From positions 1-53,619 of the forward strand of contig WELB01000325.1 in assembly GCA_009602725.1 (NCBI GenBank): a stretch of 53,619 nucleotides of DNA, in the 5' to 3' direction. The notes below the pieces were generated by a model. That model was given only the letters and a program-made list of their open reading frames with translations, was not told where the DNA came from and made no database searches. The stretch is from Spirogloea muscicola. Taxonomy: Eukaryota > Streptophyta > Zygnematophyceae > Spirogloeales > Spirogloeaceae. The position numbers and the translations under genes are program-made. Below, in pieces: positions 28,557 through 53,619 of the stretch (positions within the stretch are counted from its first letter, which is position 1; every line of letters begins with the position of its first letter).

Positions 28557-31500
28557 CGGGCCGCTCCGGAGGCCGCGAGAGGAGGCTGGCGCCGCCGGCG
28601 TGCGGGAGGACGGCGGCTGAGGCGGCGCGCCGCGCAGCGGCGGGCGCGGCAGCGCGGCACGGCGGCGGGCGCCGTGCCGGCGGGCCGGCACCGGCCGCGG
28701 AGGGCCGGGGGGGTTGTTGTGGCCGTCTGGGAGACAACCTGCTCCACGATAAAAAAGGTCGTCCATGGGAGATTAGATATGCTTGCCTTTGTACTTGGCC
28801 ATTTTGGCCCACGTTTGTTTCAAATACACGAAATTCCTAGAAGGTGAAAGGTCGTGTGGTTGGGGAGCGATAGTGGGCCTGAGCGGCCAAGTACGAAGAG
28901 ACAAGCGCGGCCAGATTGACTGGTGGCTGGGAGAGGCCAGGAGAGAAGGCGCGCGGGGCACATGAAGTGAATGAGGCCAATGCAAACCAATACATTGTGC
29001 AGGCAAAGTCTAGAGCAAACTAAAGAAGGCTACATAATACCTAAAGTTAGGAGGAATGGACGGTCTGAAGAAGCCGGAGTGCTAAGGACTAAGACAACAG
29101 CAACGAGACGTACGAAGGCAAGCACACTGACAGATGTACATCACCTGCTGCTAGCTGACCCGCTCAGTAACTACGAGTCAGCATGTAGAGGTCGCTAACT
29201 GATGCCCGAATACCTGACGGCAATTGACAAGCTCTTGTGCACGCTTAGGCTCGACCAGCTTTCTGGTGCAAAGCATGAGCCTGACTTGCTACAAACAGGC
29301 TGACACACGACATAATGAAGACGACATCCCGGCATGCTCAACTCGGCTGGAAGCACATCCTCACGTCGTGCATATCCTAGACTTTGGCGATGTTTGGGGC
29401 GATGGCTGTGGACTGAAAGAGCTCCGTCAATATAAGACAGTAGCTGTGAGAGGCCAGCCGAATGGGCGCTCAAAGCGGTGGCTCGTCTGATGGATCTGGA
29501 CTGAGAAGGCGCTGTTCTCCAACGAATCACAGGGATAAGCGGAAGGAGCGACATCATAAAGACTATCCCTGGGGCGGCGACCACTTCTTCTCGTGCGCCA
29601 TGTACATCTATGGCGGCTACAGTTCAAAGTGGTCTTCCCTTCTTCATCGCCTGCCACAGCTTGTTGATGCCCGCTGACGTAGTCGGGCGGGTAGCTTAGG
29701 GCACTTTAGTGTCCTGCAAGCAACAGTTGCTTGCTGTATATTGCAACTTTCCTTTTTGCAGCACTTCCAGTCACTCGAGATAAGGCGCTCGAGATACACC
29801 AGCGTGCTGGGCTCGCACTAGGCCAGGCTAATGGCTTGCCTTTTGATGGTCTGGATCCTCAGCTTAGCTTGTCGGATATGTATGTGCTCACTCGTGAGTA
29901 CTACTCGTGGGTGCGTGAGACCCCCTTAACCAGCTTCTTGCTTCGTTACCAACATTTTATAAGGCTCGCATTGACATCCCTTTCCTTCCATGCGCACCGC
30001 GCCCCTTTTTTCGGAAGCGGGGCGATGGCTGTGGGTGGAGATGTGGCTGTGGAAGGCCAGCCCAAAGAGATGGACAAGGTGCGAGTAGGCTCCCAGCCAC
30101 CGCCCTCCTGGACGCGTCTTCCTCCTTCTGCTCACCCGTGGGTACTAATGTCACCCTGTTACCTTAAACACTCTAGTATAGGTCTCCATATTATGTGGCC
30201 TTTATTTTGCACTAGACTCTGCCTGAACAATGTACTCGCTTGATTTGGCCCTTTCATTTCATGCGCACCGTGCGCCTCTCTCTCTTCTGGAGTTGTACGG
30301 CCGTCTCGCCGGCCCCATTGCGGAGACTGTCTGCGAGAAGGTGGGTACCACATGTTCCCGCCCGGCGCACAACTGACCGGCGCTTGACGGTGGCTCGGCC
30401 AAGTGGCCCACAGTTGGGAAGAAGCTGGGCCGCGGCTGATGAAGGCGGCACGCTTCCCATGCGGGCTCGACGTCAAGATGCGTGTTCACCGTGGCCTGCG
30501 GGCCGCCCAAGCCAGTGCAGGACGGTCCAACCCACTTGTCAATGCGGCAGCCACCTGCACACTGTTGCCATCATCTGCTCCGCTACGTGGAGCGTGTGTG
30601 CGTCTGCGTCCTCTCTTCGTGGCTACTACCTGTGTGCTTTAGCTCCTTTCTCTGGCCCCTTCCGAACTTTGTTCATTCTATTTCTCTGGGCTGGCCCCTC
30701 ACAGCCACCGCCCTCTACTGGAAGCGTCCTCTCACTATCATATTCACTCTTCGACTCAAATTCAGAACACCTGGTGGCCAATTGAGTCGGTGTGTGCTTA
30801 AGGCCTCTTCTGGCCCACTCAAACTTTGTCCAATGTTATTTCTGGGTTGGCCAATCCAATCACAGCCTCGCCCTCGGGAAGACTGGAAGAGGCTTTCTCT
30901 TTTCGAGCTGGCTGATTTATAACAGCGGCCGCTCCCTTTGGAAGACGAAGATTCTTCCCAAGGGGGGCGATGGCTTTGAGAGCTAGCTTCATCTTCCGAA
31001 GTGCCGTCCACTTGCACACAGGCCGCGCCTTGGCTGCTGCTTCCGGAATCTTCAGGGCGATTGCATCACCCTGGCACTACAGGCTATCGCTAGACGATTT
31101 ACTATGCTTCATCGCTTCCTCCTTTCATTGAAGGGCCGAGCACCTCTTGCATGAGGTGGCTCGTCTGCGAAACCTGCAAGAGCATCTTTCAGCCGGCTTG
31201 CTGAGTGTGGTGGGGAGCTATCACTCCCTTGAAAGGCATGATAATTTTGCTCATCTGGGGGCGCTGACTGTGAAAGGGCAGCTCAACAAAGGATGGAGTG
31301 AGTCTGTGAGCCGGACAACTGCTGAATTACAGCGCTACCCAAGTGGCTCCTATGAATGGGTACTCACCGATTCGCTACTTCACTCAAAGAGCTTCGTCTA
31401 GGGTCAGGGTTTTGGGTTTTGGGTTCAGGGGTTTAGGATTTAGGGTTTATGTGAGAAGGAGAGAATCTCTCTTCTGTCCTTCTCACCACAGCCCAAGCGC

Positions 31501-34791: not shown

Positions 34792-36538
34792 TCTGGGCAT
34801 TAAGTGGATCCCACTTAACAAATAAATTATGTTGCTGAGGCTTAACTGCCAATAATTATTGCTATAGGCACTTAGCATCCACACACCACTATACTGCTTG
34901 GTAGCAGGCGCTTGGTCTAGCATTTGGTAGTGAAAGGATAAGGGCGATCACAGCATTACCGACATTTTACTGACATATTCATGACCACGTCCTAGTACTC
35001 TTAATGATGACTAGCCTGCCAGGCTGCTGCTTGTTCAGGTCGCCAGCCAATGCGCATGATGCAGCTTGCTCGTTGTCGACAAATTAGATAGACCTTGTTC
35101 TTGTTCTCAGTGGCAATACAAATATTGCAGCCAAAGTGCTAGCTGAGATAACAAAACGAGCGAGGACCATGTGGCAGTGTCATTGAGATCATGACAGCAC
35201 ATAGCGGCGGTTACAGCAGTATGTAGCATTGTCTATCCTGCACTAGAGTCTGCCTGAACAATGCATTGGCTTGAATTGGCCTCCCTTTGATGTCATGCGT
35301 TCTGCGCGCCTTCTCTTTCCTTCTTTGGCATCTCTTTCTTTGGCTTTGGACATTGTCCATTCTTTTTGGGCTGGCTTTGCCAACCCTTCTTCTCTATGGG
35401 CGAGCCCTTTCTTCTTGTGTATCGAATGCGCCTGGCCGTCTCGCTGCAGAGGTCCATGGCCCGGGCGCTGCACCTTCGTGCCGGCAGAGCCCTCGCTGCT
35501 GCCTCTGGCTCTGGCCAGGGGACCCACTTCCAGGAGCCCAGCATCTCTGATCTGCGGCTGCTTAGCAGGGGTTACTGAGTGTCTCGTAGCAGCTTTGTTT
35601 CTGTTACTTAGCGCTTCCCCTGGCCCCCTTCTCGTACTCTGTTCATTCTTTTTCGGGCTGGTTGTTCCAGCCCCTATTCTCAATGGGCGAGCACTTTCTT
35701 CTTTTCTTCTTTATGCACACGGCTGGCTTCTACAGCCCCTTTTCGTGATAACGAGAGGAAGGCGCTTCCAGCAGAGGGCGATAGCTGTAAGTGGCCAGCC
35801 CAGCGAAAAGTCCTGATGCAGTGCTTCCTTCTTTCTTCGCGTCTTTCTCTCTTCTGGCTGGCATTAAACAGCCGATTCTTTTATGTTAGCAGCCGCATTC
35901 TTCTTCCTTCGCCAGCCGGGGCCGCTCGCCCGCCCCTCCGCCGCCGGCGTCGCCGAGCTCTCTGCGGCCAGCGGTCGCCCCGGCCACGGTGCCACTCCGC
36001 CGCCGTGCCTGCGCCACTCGCCACAGTCATGGCCGCATGCTGGGCTGTTCCGTTGAGCTTGCCGAGTCGCTGCTTCGGCTGACAGAAGCGAGCCTCTGAC
36101 AAGATCAAAGCACCCCTTGCGCTGGCGCAGCGCCTGGTCCAGGTTGCGTCGTGAGCACAGCCATCACGACGAAATTTTCAGAGGGCAACAATGACAATGG
36201 ATTGCCTTTAGCAGCCATTTCTGCAGCATGCTGACAGCCACTTTCATTGTCTTTGCAAGGCCACCACGCTTGCACGGCAGCATTGTTGGAGGACTTCTTT
36301 GCAAGCTGAGACACTTTGGCTAGGATGGCTGGCTTCAGGGCCGAGCTTGCGGCTATCAAGCCAGGCCTGACCCGGATCGGGTGAGGGACCTCTGCAAATC
36401 TTAGCCTCTGTCAAGGGTCGAAGCCTGGCGATGTGTATCGCGCTGAGTACAGTTGTTTTCAAAATCGTCGTTCGTGAATGAGCTGTCGTATGTCACTTTA
36501 CTCAACTTCCTTGGGGCATGTGTCTCGGACATGTCAGA
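34792..36538. other. Intergenic region between GH16 and dehydrogenase, with a repeat insertion
   Basis: 34792-35230 shows no coding signal beyond the GH16 3' UTR. 35240-35820 is a near-complete repeat copy (separate entry). 35900-36110 is GC-rich and carries an ATG at 36029 (MAACWAVPLSLPSRCF) that could be the dehydrogenase 5' exon, but I cannot connect it in phase. Confidence 0.5.
35240..35820 (+). repeat. Interspersed repeat copy with intact coding module (type I)
   Basis: In order: the 3' module of a type II copy (TAGAGTCTGCCTGAACAATG at 35245 through GCGCGCC at 35311), a GGGCTGGCTTTGCCAACCC hairpin module (35368-35386), an open frame 35426-35578 reading MRLAVSLQRSMARALHLRAG, RALAAASG, then QGTHFQEPSISDLRLLSRGY-stop, a T-rich spacer, a second hairpin GGGCTGG/CCAGCCC (35655-35673), and CTCAATGGGCGAGCACTTTC. 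The same order recurs at 51.8-52.0 and 52.7-52.9 kb. Confidence 0.8.
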
Positions 36539-42134: not shown

Positions 42135-43400
42135 TCCACCTTTTTGGGCTGGGCCTTCTGACCCTTCAGACCCTTCCTCCCCATGTTTTACCATAGCATC
42201 CTCAGGCCCCTTTGTAAGGAAAATTTCGTGTATTTGAAACAAACATAGGCCAATGGCCAAGTACAAAGGCAAGCAAGCACATCTAAATATCTACATAACC
42301 TACAGCAGGTTGACCCGCTCAAAATCCACGGGTCAAAACATAAAGGTCGCTAACCGATGCATGAATACTAGATGTCAGGTACGAAGCCCTTCTGTCACCA
42401 ACTAGAGCCAGCCCAGCTTTCTGATGCAAGGCATTAGCCTGAGCTCGCTGCAAACAGGCCGAAACTCGACGTCGCAAGAACGACAAATATGCAGCTGGCC
42501 TTTGTAGCTGCTCACCGCTCTTAGGCCCCTCTGAACCTTTGTGAATTCTTTTTGGGCTGGCTTTTCGCAGCCCTTGCCCCCATTGGGAGTGTCACTTCTC
42601 TCTTCTGGCTCTTCATCAACGTGCAGGGCGCGCTCTAAGTCAGGCCTCCGGCTTTCGTGGCGGCGCTCCAGCTCCCCAAGTTAGCTTGTCAGATTTGTTT
42701 GTGCTCACCCGTGGGTACTAATGTCATCTTAGGTACCTTAGATTTGGTCTCCGTATTATGTAGCATTGTTTAGTCTGCACTCGACTCTGCCTGAACAATG
42801 TATTGGCTTGAATTGGCCTCCCTTTCAATTCATGCGCCCCGCGCGCCTTCTCTCTCTCTTCTGACCAACACGGTAGACAAGGTCCGAAGGGGCTGAACAA
42901 AAGCGCTGAAACACACCACTGCGGAAGAAAGAAGAAGTGGCACTCCCAAGGGCTGCGAAAAGAAAGAAAGGGCTCGCCCATAGAGACGAGGGGCCGGCAA
43001 AGCCAGCCCGAAAAGAATTGACAGAGGAAAGCTGTCTCCCCGTGTTGCCCGTCCGGCTGCTGACTAGCGGCTGCTGACCGGGAACATCCCCCTCCTCCCC
43101 GTGGCGGCGCCAGGCCGGTGGCGGGCCAGGGGGGACCGGTTGCGCCGTAGGGACCAGGCCGCGGCGCCCCCCTCCGTCGATGCTGCCAAGCGGATGGTCC
43201 GGCAGCACCTCCTCTCCTGAACAGTGTGTTGGCTTAAATCGGCCTCCCTTTCACTTCATGCGCAGAGAGAAGGCGCGCGGTGCGCATGAACTGAAGGGTG
43301 GCCAATCCAAGCCAAAAACCCTGTTCACGCAAAAGCTAGTGCAAAATCTGGGGGCTTCAGACATCGAAGCACTATGCTAAGGTGGCTAAGGTAACAGTGT
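42135..43400. repeat. Repeat island between KH gene and ALG8
   Basis: 42222-42292 matches the inverted 28774-28838 copy; 42300-42480 is a diverged relative of 29150-29330. A hairpin module (TTTTGGGCTGGCTTTTCGCA, then GCCC and CCCATTGGGAGTG) lies at 42547-42595. A coding module follows at about 42606-42720, reading HQRAGRALSQASGFRGG, then LSDLFVLTRGY-stop. The type II 3' module (GCCTGAACAATGTATTGGCT to GCGCGCC) is at 42789-42847. Reverse-oriented modules lie at 42930-43025. A fold-back pair lies at 43213-43320. 43400-43455, minus strand, reads LSDLYLLTRGY. Confidence 0.75.
43213..43320. repeat. Fold-back (inverted) pair of type II 3' modules
   Basis: GAACAGTGTGTTGGCTTAAA...CTTCATGCGC runs on the plus strand and its near reverse complement, GCGCATGAACTGAAGGGTGG...CCCTGTTC, follows after about 20 bp. 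Arms are about 40 bp and imperfect, giving a hairpin-forming unit like a MITE or a head-to-head insertion. Confidence 0.7.
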
Positions 43401-51040: not shown

Positions 51041-51387
51041 ATTCATTTCCTTGGCTGGGAGAGGCCAGCCCAGAGAAATTCGACGCGCGTGCCATTGACC
51101 GCTGCAGCGAGACGGACAGGCGCATGCGACATACCTGAGCGAGATGAAAGCGCGGCCAGATTGACTGGTGGCTGAGCGAGCGAGAGAAAAGAAGAGCTCG
51201 CCCATAGGAAAGGTGGGCTGGCAAAGCCAGCCCAGAAAGAATTGACAATGTCCAAAGCCAAAGAAAAAGGTGCAGAAAAAGGACTACACTACCAAGCACG
51301 ACAAAGCACTAGGGAAGAAGTGTACCCGCGAAAAGAAGAAGTGGCACGGGGCCTTTGGCGCAAAGTGGCTCGACTTGCTTCACCGCC

Positions 51388-51614
51388 TTGCGCAGCAGGC
51401 CGCGGCCCGCCGCCACGGGCAGCAGGGCGAGCAGCCCGGCTTCAATGTCGCCGGGTCCCTCGCGCAGGTCTTCCGCATGCGGTTGGCCGTCTCGCTTCAG
51501 CGGTCCCTTGCGTGCGCAGTCCACTTGCGCGCAGGCCGAGCTTTGGCGGCGGCTTCCGGCTTCCGTCAGGGCGACGTCTTCCCCCGGCTAGCTACTCAGA
51601 CTTGCATCTCCTGA
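51388..51614 (+). CDS. Repeat-borne conserved open frame, copy A
   Basis: The frame reads ARRHGQQGEQPGFNVAGSLA, then QVFRMRLAVSLQRSLACAVH, LRAGRALAAASGFRQGDVFP and a short divergent end. It matches copy B (52.02-52.29 kb) over about 75 residues. Codons differ mainly at third positions while residues are kept or changed conservatively (V/I, H/Y, F/Y). The upstream extent and any start or splice site are unclear. I do not recognise the family; it may be the C-terminus of a mobile-element protein or of a captured host gene. Confidence 0.5.
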
Positions 51615-52019
51615 CTAGAAGGTTACTGAGCGTCCTCTGGCTGATGTCTTAGTCCTAGTCCACAGGCATGGACTGTAGTGTAGTTCTTTTTCGGCACCTC
51701 TTTCTTTGGCTTGGAAAGTGTTCATTCTTTTCGGGCTGGCTTTGCCAGCCACTCTTCTCTATGGGCGAGCACTTTGTTCTCTGGCTCTGGCCAGGGGACC
51801 CACTTCCAGGAGCCTAGCATCTCTGATCTGCGGCTGCTTAGCAGGGGTTAATGAGAGATTCGTAGCTACTTTGTTTGTTCTTGTGCTTGTTTTTCTTAGC
51901 GCTTCTTCTGGCCCCCTTCACGTACTTTGTTCATTCTTTTTTGGGCTGGCTTTTCCAGCCCCTATCCTCAATGGGCGAGCACTTTCTTTTTCTCCTGACC
52001 AGCTAGCTCGAAGCTGGGA

Positions 52020-52286
52020 AAGCTGGGAAGTGCAGCGGCCCGCCGCCACGGGCAACAGGGTGAGCAGCCTGGCTTTAATGTGGCCGGGTCCCTCGCTCAG
52101 GTCTACCGGATGCGCTTGGCTATCTCTTTGCAGCGGTCCCTAGCCTTCGCCGTTTACCTGCGCGCCGGCCGCGCTTTGGCTGCGGCCTCCGGCTACCGTC
52201 AAGGCGACGTCTTTCCGCCGTCTAGCTATTCAGGGCGAGCACTTTCTTCTTATTCAGACTTGCATCTTCTGACTATAGGTTACTGA
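52020..52286 (+). CDS. Repeat-borne conserved open frame, copy B
   Basis: The frame reads ARRHGQQGEQPGFNVAGSLA, QVYRMRLAISLQRSLAFAVY, LRAGRALAAASGYRQGDVFP, then PSSYSGRALSSYSDLHLLTI-GY-stop. The SGRALS insertion uses GGGCGAGCACTTTCTTCT, the sequence that follows the hairpin in other copies. The terminal SDLHLL...GY-stop aligns with SDLRLLSRGY-stop in other copies, so the C-terminus is shared by the family. The function is unknown. Confidence 0.5.
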   Translation, partial: KLGSAAARRHGQQGEQPGFNVAGSLAQVYRMRLAISLQRSLAFAVYLRAGRALAAASGYRQGDVFPPSSYSGRALSSYSDLHLLTIGY

Positions 52287-53619
52287 GAGTCCCCTTGCTG
52301 CTGTCTTAGTCCTTAGCACCTAGGATTCGTCTGTCCTTGTCCATTCCTTTCGGGCTGGCCTCTCCCAGCCACCAGTCAATCTGGCCGCGCTTGCTCTTTA
52401 AAGAAAGTGCTCGCCCTAAGAAAAAGGGGGCCAGCAAAGCCAGCCCAGAAAGAATCGACAATATTCGAAAGCCAAAGAAAGAAAAGTCACACAGCTAGGC
52501 AGCTAGATAAGAAGACACAACAAGACCACAGGAAGCTCAATACCCACGGGTGAGCAACATCAGGTCAGAGTAGCTCGACGCCGGAAAAGAAGAACTGGCA
52601 CTCCAAATGGGGGCAAGGGCTGTGATAAGCCAGCCCAAAAAGAATTGACAAGGGTTCGGAGGGGCCGACAAGCGTTTAGCAGCTACAGAGGGGCCTGAAG
52701 ATGTCATGTCAGCACAGGGGGAGGATGGTCACTCAGTAGTTACGAGTGAGGAGCCGCAGATGTGACTGCTTAGCAGGGGTTACTGAGTAGTTAGTAGCTG
52801 CTTTGTTTCTTCTTGTGTGCTTCTTTCTTAGTGCTTCGCCTTAGTGCTTCGCCTGGCCCCCTTCTTCTTGGGCATCTTGTACTCTGCTCATTCTTTTTTG
52901 GGCTGGCTGTTCCAGCCCCTATCCTCAATGGGCGAGCTCTTTCTTCTGATGCGACAGACTAGCTGCCGGAAAACTATCCCCCTGCTTGAATTGGCCTCCC
53001 TCTCAATTCATGCGCCCCGCGCGCCTTCTCTCTCCTGCCGAAAGCCAGAGGCCGCAGCGAGAGCACGGCCAGCACGCAGATGTAGAGCATGGGCCATGGA
53101 CCGATGGAGGAGCCAAAACAGCTGCTTCGTAGCTGCTTTGTTTCTTCTTGTGCTTGTTTTTCTTAGCGCTTCCCCTGGCTCCCTTCTCGTACTTTGTCCA
53201 TTCTTTTTTGGGCTGGCTGTTCCAGCCCAAAACCCATGATGGGCGGCCCCTGCTGCAGCAGGTTGTGGAGGAGGTGGCGACTGGCTCGCTGCCTTTCCAG
53301 GAAGAAGTGGCACTCCCAATGGGGGCAAGGGCTGCGAAAAGCCAGCCCAAAAAGTATTCACAAAGGTTCAGAGGGGCCTAAGAGCGGTGAGCAGCTATAA
53401 AGGGGCCTGAGGATGCAATGGTAAAACAGGGGGAGGATGGATCACTCAATAAGTACGAGTGAGGAGCCTCAGATCCGACAGACTAGCTGCCGGGAAGCTA
53501 TCACCCTGACGAAAGCCAGAGCCCGCAGCGAGAGCACGGCCAGCTCGCAGATGCAGAGCGTGGGCCATGGACCGCTGCAGGGATACAGAGAGGCGCATCC
53601 GATATACCTGAGCCCACGA

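Follow-up and report, generated by a model that had tools for sequence, protein, structure and literature searches.

In non-LTR retrotransposons (LINEs) of the group whose single open frame combines a reverse transcriptase (RT) with a restriction-like endonuclease (RLE), the marks given in the parts of PMC5678591 drawn on here are a CX2-3CX7-8HX4C knuckle, an RH, a variant of PD-(D/E)XK with its K in KX2KY, and a GXW. Utopia elements run from zinc fingers through the RT and a further zinc finger to the RLE in the sections of PMC4640811 used, a paper in which a term search found algae unmentioned. In green algae, Chlamydomonas and its relatives are described as carrying L1, Zepp-like and Dualen LINEs, and the clusters formed by Zepp are put down to nesting, in which new copies, often 5'-truncated, insert into those already present (both from portions of PMC8226300). 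For the host group treated here, the portion of the open-licence PMC literature consulted yielded no account of RLE LINEs; a paper on oomycetes and plants had no algal RLE element in the passages used.

The window analysed is the whole stretch from position 1 to 53,619 of contig WELB01000325.1 (53,619 nucleotides), taken from the 153-Mb genome assembly of Spirogloea muscicola. Chlorophyll-binding domains match this assembly in 68 exon-wise rows, one of which has chlorophyll a-b binding proteins as its best PDB match, so that a chlorophyll a/b plastid is indicated; on these matches taken by themselves the host would most simply be a green alga or plant, with euglenids and chlorarachniophytes as less simple options. 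A sequence-only reading had noticed in it an interspersed repeat encoding a protein segment, here called the module, which looked selectively constrained and whose family was not recognised. That family is a LINE, with RT, knuckle, RLE and tail in one open frame. Judged from the frames and alignments described below, the module almost certainly forms the C-terminus of the protein encoded by a LINE of the RLE group, and the RT of this LINE is closest to R2 among solved structures.

Open frames upstream of the module

A protein search of the genome, in which 150 of 13,039 first-look candidates were scored, gave at least 150 matches, one of them with an internal stop; the ranking by protein score biases this listing towards good copies. 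Upstream of the point at which the first of the two plus-strand window copies begins, the open frame of several further copies extends by hundreds of bases, and for this reason an initial reading of the repeat as a 430-bp element with a fixed start at 51345 was rejected. Longer copies with upstream domains, of the kind that the sequence-only reading had proposed to look for, do exist, the frame continuing upstream through the RLE and a Cys-His knuckle into RVT_1. In L042, an open frame of 720 codons contains the larger part of the RT, the knuckle, the RLE and the module, and its match to RVT_1 (PF00078) covers model positions 62–193 of 205 (3.2e-9). RVT_1 scored above the cut-off in four of the five frames scanned, namely this one and those of L051 (1.2e-14), L053 (2.5e-13) and L054 (7.3e-16). 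The exception is L040, whose 639-aa frame matched nothing in Pfam and aligns with the L042 frame only from residue 103.

Free of N, the stop-to-stop frames of L050, L051, L053 and L054 measure 1517, 1521, 1433 and 1243 aa, respectively, and L054 itself seems to be 5'-truncated behind another LINE tail. The N-terminal parts of these four carry CxxC...H...C finger motifs and proline-rich stretches, with Pfam zinc-finger matches below the cut-off, and the order along one open frame is finger motifs, RT, Cys/His knuckle, RLE and module tail. Searching the genome with the 720-aa L042 frame gave at least 64 matches (62 of 17,958 candidates scored); 25 of the 64 listed lie in frames of more than 1,300 aa and contain no stop within the match, N runs being able to lengthen such frames. 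Several groups of listed LINE copies have identical match scores and unbroken frames, which suggests recent copying or mobility in this genome.

The profile search that had been advised was run against the PDB with a profile from six long-frame proteins, and returned three matches at E up to 1, all of them R2 retrotransposon sequences (2.8e-7 to 1.2e-6), which span the RT only (profile positions 214–489) and leave the RLE outside; other RLE clades may lack structures. When single sequences were searched against the PDB, the result was either empty or limited to pseudouridine synthases at E 0.2–0.33, which we take as chance. NCBIfam gave no match to the L042 frame, Rfam none to the window at gathering thresholds, and Pfam only two sub-threshold matches to ten window ORFs, while 44 pattern matches in viral contigs were obtained and none was confirmed.

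The endonuclease signature was read from an alignment of six rows (A1), in which HD, R-x-D-x14-D, KxxKY and GxxW are invariant, the positions concerned including H816 D817, D858-x14-D873 and K903xxK906Y907. The KxxKY motif is exact, the P of PD is replaced by A or V (R[AV]D), and the knuckle stands at its expected place with a spacing of C-x1-C-x12-H-x3-C, which departs from the published CX2-3CX7-8HX4C. The module begins at the HGAFGxxW stretch and is therefore the last edge of the RLE together with the tail behind it.

The nest at the end of the window

Both plus-strand copies reported earlier are present, with boundaries that had to be redrawn, the alignable sequence starting at 51345 in copy 1 and at 52032 in copy 2. 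Alignment with other copies identifies 51345–51584 (+) as 80 in-frame codons of a family-A LINE ORF, comprising the RLE edge (GxxW) and the C-terminal tail; copy 1 is 5'-truncated at 51345, upstream of which other copies extend in frame and the window sequence does not. Compared with open copies the frame is lost after codon 80, and the remaining, out-of-frame ORF end is followed by the 3'UTR, a hairpin (51733–51750) and a tail ending GGGCGAGCAC (51585–51772, +). Directly behind this tail sits the 3' end of a family-C LINE (51780–51982, +), with its last 23 codons (51780–51848), 3'UTR, hairpin (51943–51960) and tail. Copy 2, a 5'-truncated family-A module (52032–52283, +), comes next and continues through its 3'UTR and a hairpin at 52352 to a tail ending GGCCGCGCTT (52284–52392, +). 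With the RT and the greater part of the RLE missing from both, copies 1 and 2 are unable to encode the enzyme.

Behind copy 2 lies an inverted family-A 3'UTR fragment (52400–52482, −), and a further one, with hairpin, is found at 51187–51292 (−). Three minus-strand fragments of related families, 80–84% like family A, consist of module sequence (51084–51143 and 53035–53109) or of module sequence and ORF end (53449–53619). Altogether, the sequence from about 51.0 to 53.6 kb is a 2.6-kb nest of 3'-end fragments from several related families in both orientations. The additional copies listed by the sequence-only reading are thereby real, at 51143–51084 (−), 53109–53035 (−) and 53619–53449 (−) as well as at 35381–35575 (+); the last is a family-C ORF end (35417–35575, alignable from 35381) with 100% identity over 53 residues to L054, and starts, at 35417, 12 nt behind another LINE tail.

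Within copy 2, an 18-nt insert GGGCGAGCACTTTCTTCT (52233–52250, +), read directly from the sequence and representing extra codons relative to L042, is flanked by direct repeats TATTCA (52227–52232 and 52251–52256). It apparently represents an inserted LINE of which nothing but the tail was copied, with a 6-nt TSD, and if a true LINE insertion it is a very short one.

Elsewhere in the window, fragments of more distant LINE families occur at 29543–29901, 42588–42322 (−) and 42608–42718, with 32–65% identity to the ORFs used, and the module of one of them reads FLRRRVSACLQRAQANALHQKAG. LINE fragments in L003, L016, L019 and L027 and at 52984–53033 of the window are accompanied by another, distinct repeat, which resembles GAATTGGCCTCCCTTTCAATTCATGCGCCCCGCGCGCC. 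About six AGGGTTT repeats (78% matches) form an interstitial telomere-like run of the TTTAGGG type at 31406–31449. The idea of a centromere-scale array was dropped, since the 9.9 kb that follow the window, of which 2,238 bases are N, match the ORF library only in their first 120 bases.

3' hairpins, tails and insertion sites

Related families with different ORFs share a 3' hairpin, GGGCTGGC-loop-GCCAGCC, followed by a family-specific tail, and the stem is nearly invariant among copies. Allowing up to two mismatches, the hairpin pattern matches the window 20 times against 1.2 expected, these matches being ten palindromic sites each found on both strands. Stems of at least six pairs are formed in 74 of 87 distinct tails, which were picked by an anchor outside the stem (shuffles, 24%). 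For two families, exact matches to the tail (40 and 41 nt) were counted across the genome and number 115 and 461, respectively, with no occurrence of the reversed controls. From what is known of LINE biology, the LINE protein would bind its own RNA at the 3' hairpin, the RLE would nick DNA, and the nick would prime a reverse transcription that usually ends early, leaving 3' fragments such as copies 1 and 2. More speculatively, sites just behind existing tails might be favoured landing places, at which nests would pile up.

Behind 57 tails from loci picked earlier, positions 2–7 are 84–100% pyrimidine and background is reached by about position 11; behind 20 exact tails of a systematic sample (one place in ten among the first 100 listed for each of two families, a single place being shifted, with low-numbered contigs over-represented), positions 2–10 are 80–100% pyrimidine. 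The 10 nt before 5' ends are not enriched (pyrimidine 0.59 vs 0.57 in the preceding 10 nt). The tract may therefore well belong to the element, as an end of variable sequence, and the notion that it is the target itself is weakened by its presence behind tails and absence before 5' ends. Of 42 copies, 11 have a TSD-like repeat of at least 7 nt joining their two ends (200 shuffles: mean 1.3, maximum 4), and 26 lack any terminal repeat of 6 nt or more. Where TSD-like repeats are present, with lengths of 6–11 nt, the distance from the tail to the start of the repeat varies, and some end repeats are tail sequence rather than TSDs (e.g. GGCGAGC in L025).

The next LINE fragment starts no more than 25 nt behind 28 of the 57 tails (21 in the same sense), figures inflated by the choice of loci, and behind five of the 20 systematic tails (four in the same sense), a fairer but small sample. 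Within 150 nt, a LINE fragment follows 43 of the 57, a figure inflated in the same way, and eight of the 20, and in a control, random 150-nt stretches of window positions 1–50,000 matched the LINE library in 26 of 400 cases.

Head-to-tail neighbours could also have been made in one insertion, the RT jumping from one LINE RNA template to another, instead of one after another, each behind a tail already in place. The R2 reverse transcriptase is known to jump end to end between templates, and the shared sense of most close neighbours in both samples fits this. Set against this are the opposite-sense neighbours (seven of 28 in the larger sample, one of five in the systematic one) and the copy at 35417, which has TTTCTTCTT on both sides, as nested insertion predicts, although pyrimidine tracts resemble one another. 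We regard template jumping as a serious contender that falls somewhat short of being probable. The wider reading that the RLE-only LINE families of this green-plastid genome share one 3' hairpin and prefer to land behind each other's tails, R2-type machinery having independently reached a Zepp-like self-nesting, is offered tentatively and must be called doubtful, the more so because the 5' flanks are not enriched in pyrimidines and the tract may belong to the element. Should the self-nesting hold, L1-type elements would not be alone in landing next to older LINE tails.

Selection on the source gene

Over the 35 codons from MRLA to DVF, the two window copies differ by 15 silent and four replacement changes, the earlier reading having counted roughly 15 and about five. 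Over 63 codons the numbers are 24 silent and six replacement (NG86 dS 0.728, dN 0.053), and the differences are distributed 4/4/23 by codon position; when the same changes were placed at random, a mean of 20.1 and a minimum of 12 codons were replaced in 5,000 trials, against the six observed. The lowest dN/dS of the six frames belongs to +0 (0.07), followed by a minus frame (0.18). CpG decay, which had been named as a possible source of such a pattern, does not explain it, since only four of the 31 differences are CpG-type transitions and the bias persists without them (21 silent vs six replacement changes).

Comparison of dN/dS across genomic copies, as had been recommended, places the constraint on the source lineage, with a low ω for shared variants (0.07–0.13) and higher values for private ones (0.37–0.87). 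Among 36 family-A copies, variants present in at least two copies comprise 73 silent and 12 replacement changes (ω ∼0.07), and those present in one copy 35 and 46 (ω ∼0.57); for the 25 of these copies found by DNA search, the counts are 29 and 5 shared (0.07) and 49 and 41 private (0.37). Twenty more diverged copies gave 0.13 shared and 0.57 private, and all 56 copies together 0.13 and 0.87, the 56 rows having at least 50 of 62 codons aligned and being weighted towards undamaged copies, since matches that were shorter or split by a frameshift had been removed. The ω values on a tree built from 51 copies are 0.25 for internal and 0.53 for terminal branches. Silent-biased shared changes with private changes closer to neutral are the pattern to be expected when an active source gene gives rise to dead copies. 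That private ω stays below 1 (0.37–0.87 by set) may mean that some private changes are old changes of the source, or that damaged copies were lost at the alignment step. The proposal that a source copy is or recently was translated is thus supported, as far as sequence can tell, by open frames of 1,243–1,521 aa that end in the module and by the silent bias of shared substitutions.

Among the five long-frame ORFs compared (L055 left out), dN/dS is comparably low over RT, RLE and module; between L050 and L042, for example, the dN/dS pairs are 0.055/0.276 for RT-linker, 0.065/0.682 for RLE and 0.089/0.502 for the module. With RT and RLE constrained about as much as the module, the module is not a free-standing constrained unit. 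It is very improbable that it represents a host protein domain, domesticated or exon-shuffled and kept for a cellular role: some copies do lie within long stop-free stretches, but those read among the eight long-frame loci are LINE ORFs or frames lengthened by N runs, private changes are closer to neutral, and Pfam gave no match to the knuckle-RLE-tail piece alone. Least credible of all, and close to untenable, is a non-coding interspersed repeat (SINE or MITE) with a codon pattern due to CpG decay, which would suit copies that are short, numerous and in both orientations, many blocks of which start at 51345 when copy 1 is the query, but that start is only the truncation point of copy 1, upstream of which several copies run on in frame, CpG-type differences are few, one frame shows the silent bias more strongly than the others, and the long RT-RLE frames ending in the module contradict it.

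Relation to described LINEs

With the module assigned to the end of a LINE ORF, the repeat, which had seemed to encode a constrained protein of unknown family, can be considered settled as a LINE tail, and a young, multi-family set of RLE LINEs is added to this host group. The type of element is already known, these families being further RLE LINEs. As in R2, CRE, NeSL, HERO and Utopia, finger motifs, RT, a Cys/His knuckle and an RLE with D...D and KxxKY are combined in one frame. Compared with these RLE LINEs, the Spirogloea copies lie on many contigs with no evident single target site, and the host has a chlorophyll a/b plastid. Dualen has two endonucleases and an RNase H. The present elements differ from it in that the long frames of L051, L053 and L054, scanned with Pfam to an E of 1, matched neither an RNase H model nor one for an APE-type endonuclease, and resemble it in that Dualen, found in Chlamydomonas, is likewise a LINE of green algae (PMC8226300, in the portions used). 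They depart from published RLE LINEs, as characterised in the passages drawn from PMC5678591, in knuckle spacing and in having GxxW instead of GXW. The nested arrays made mostly of 3' ends are like those of Zepp and ZeppL of green algae, but Zepp is an L1 element (both points from the same portions of PMC8226300), whereas here the three scanned frames gave no APE-type match, the endonuclease is a C-terminal RLE and the nest measures about 2.6 kb.
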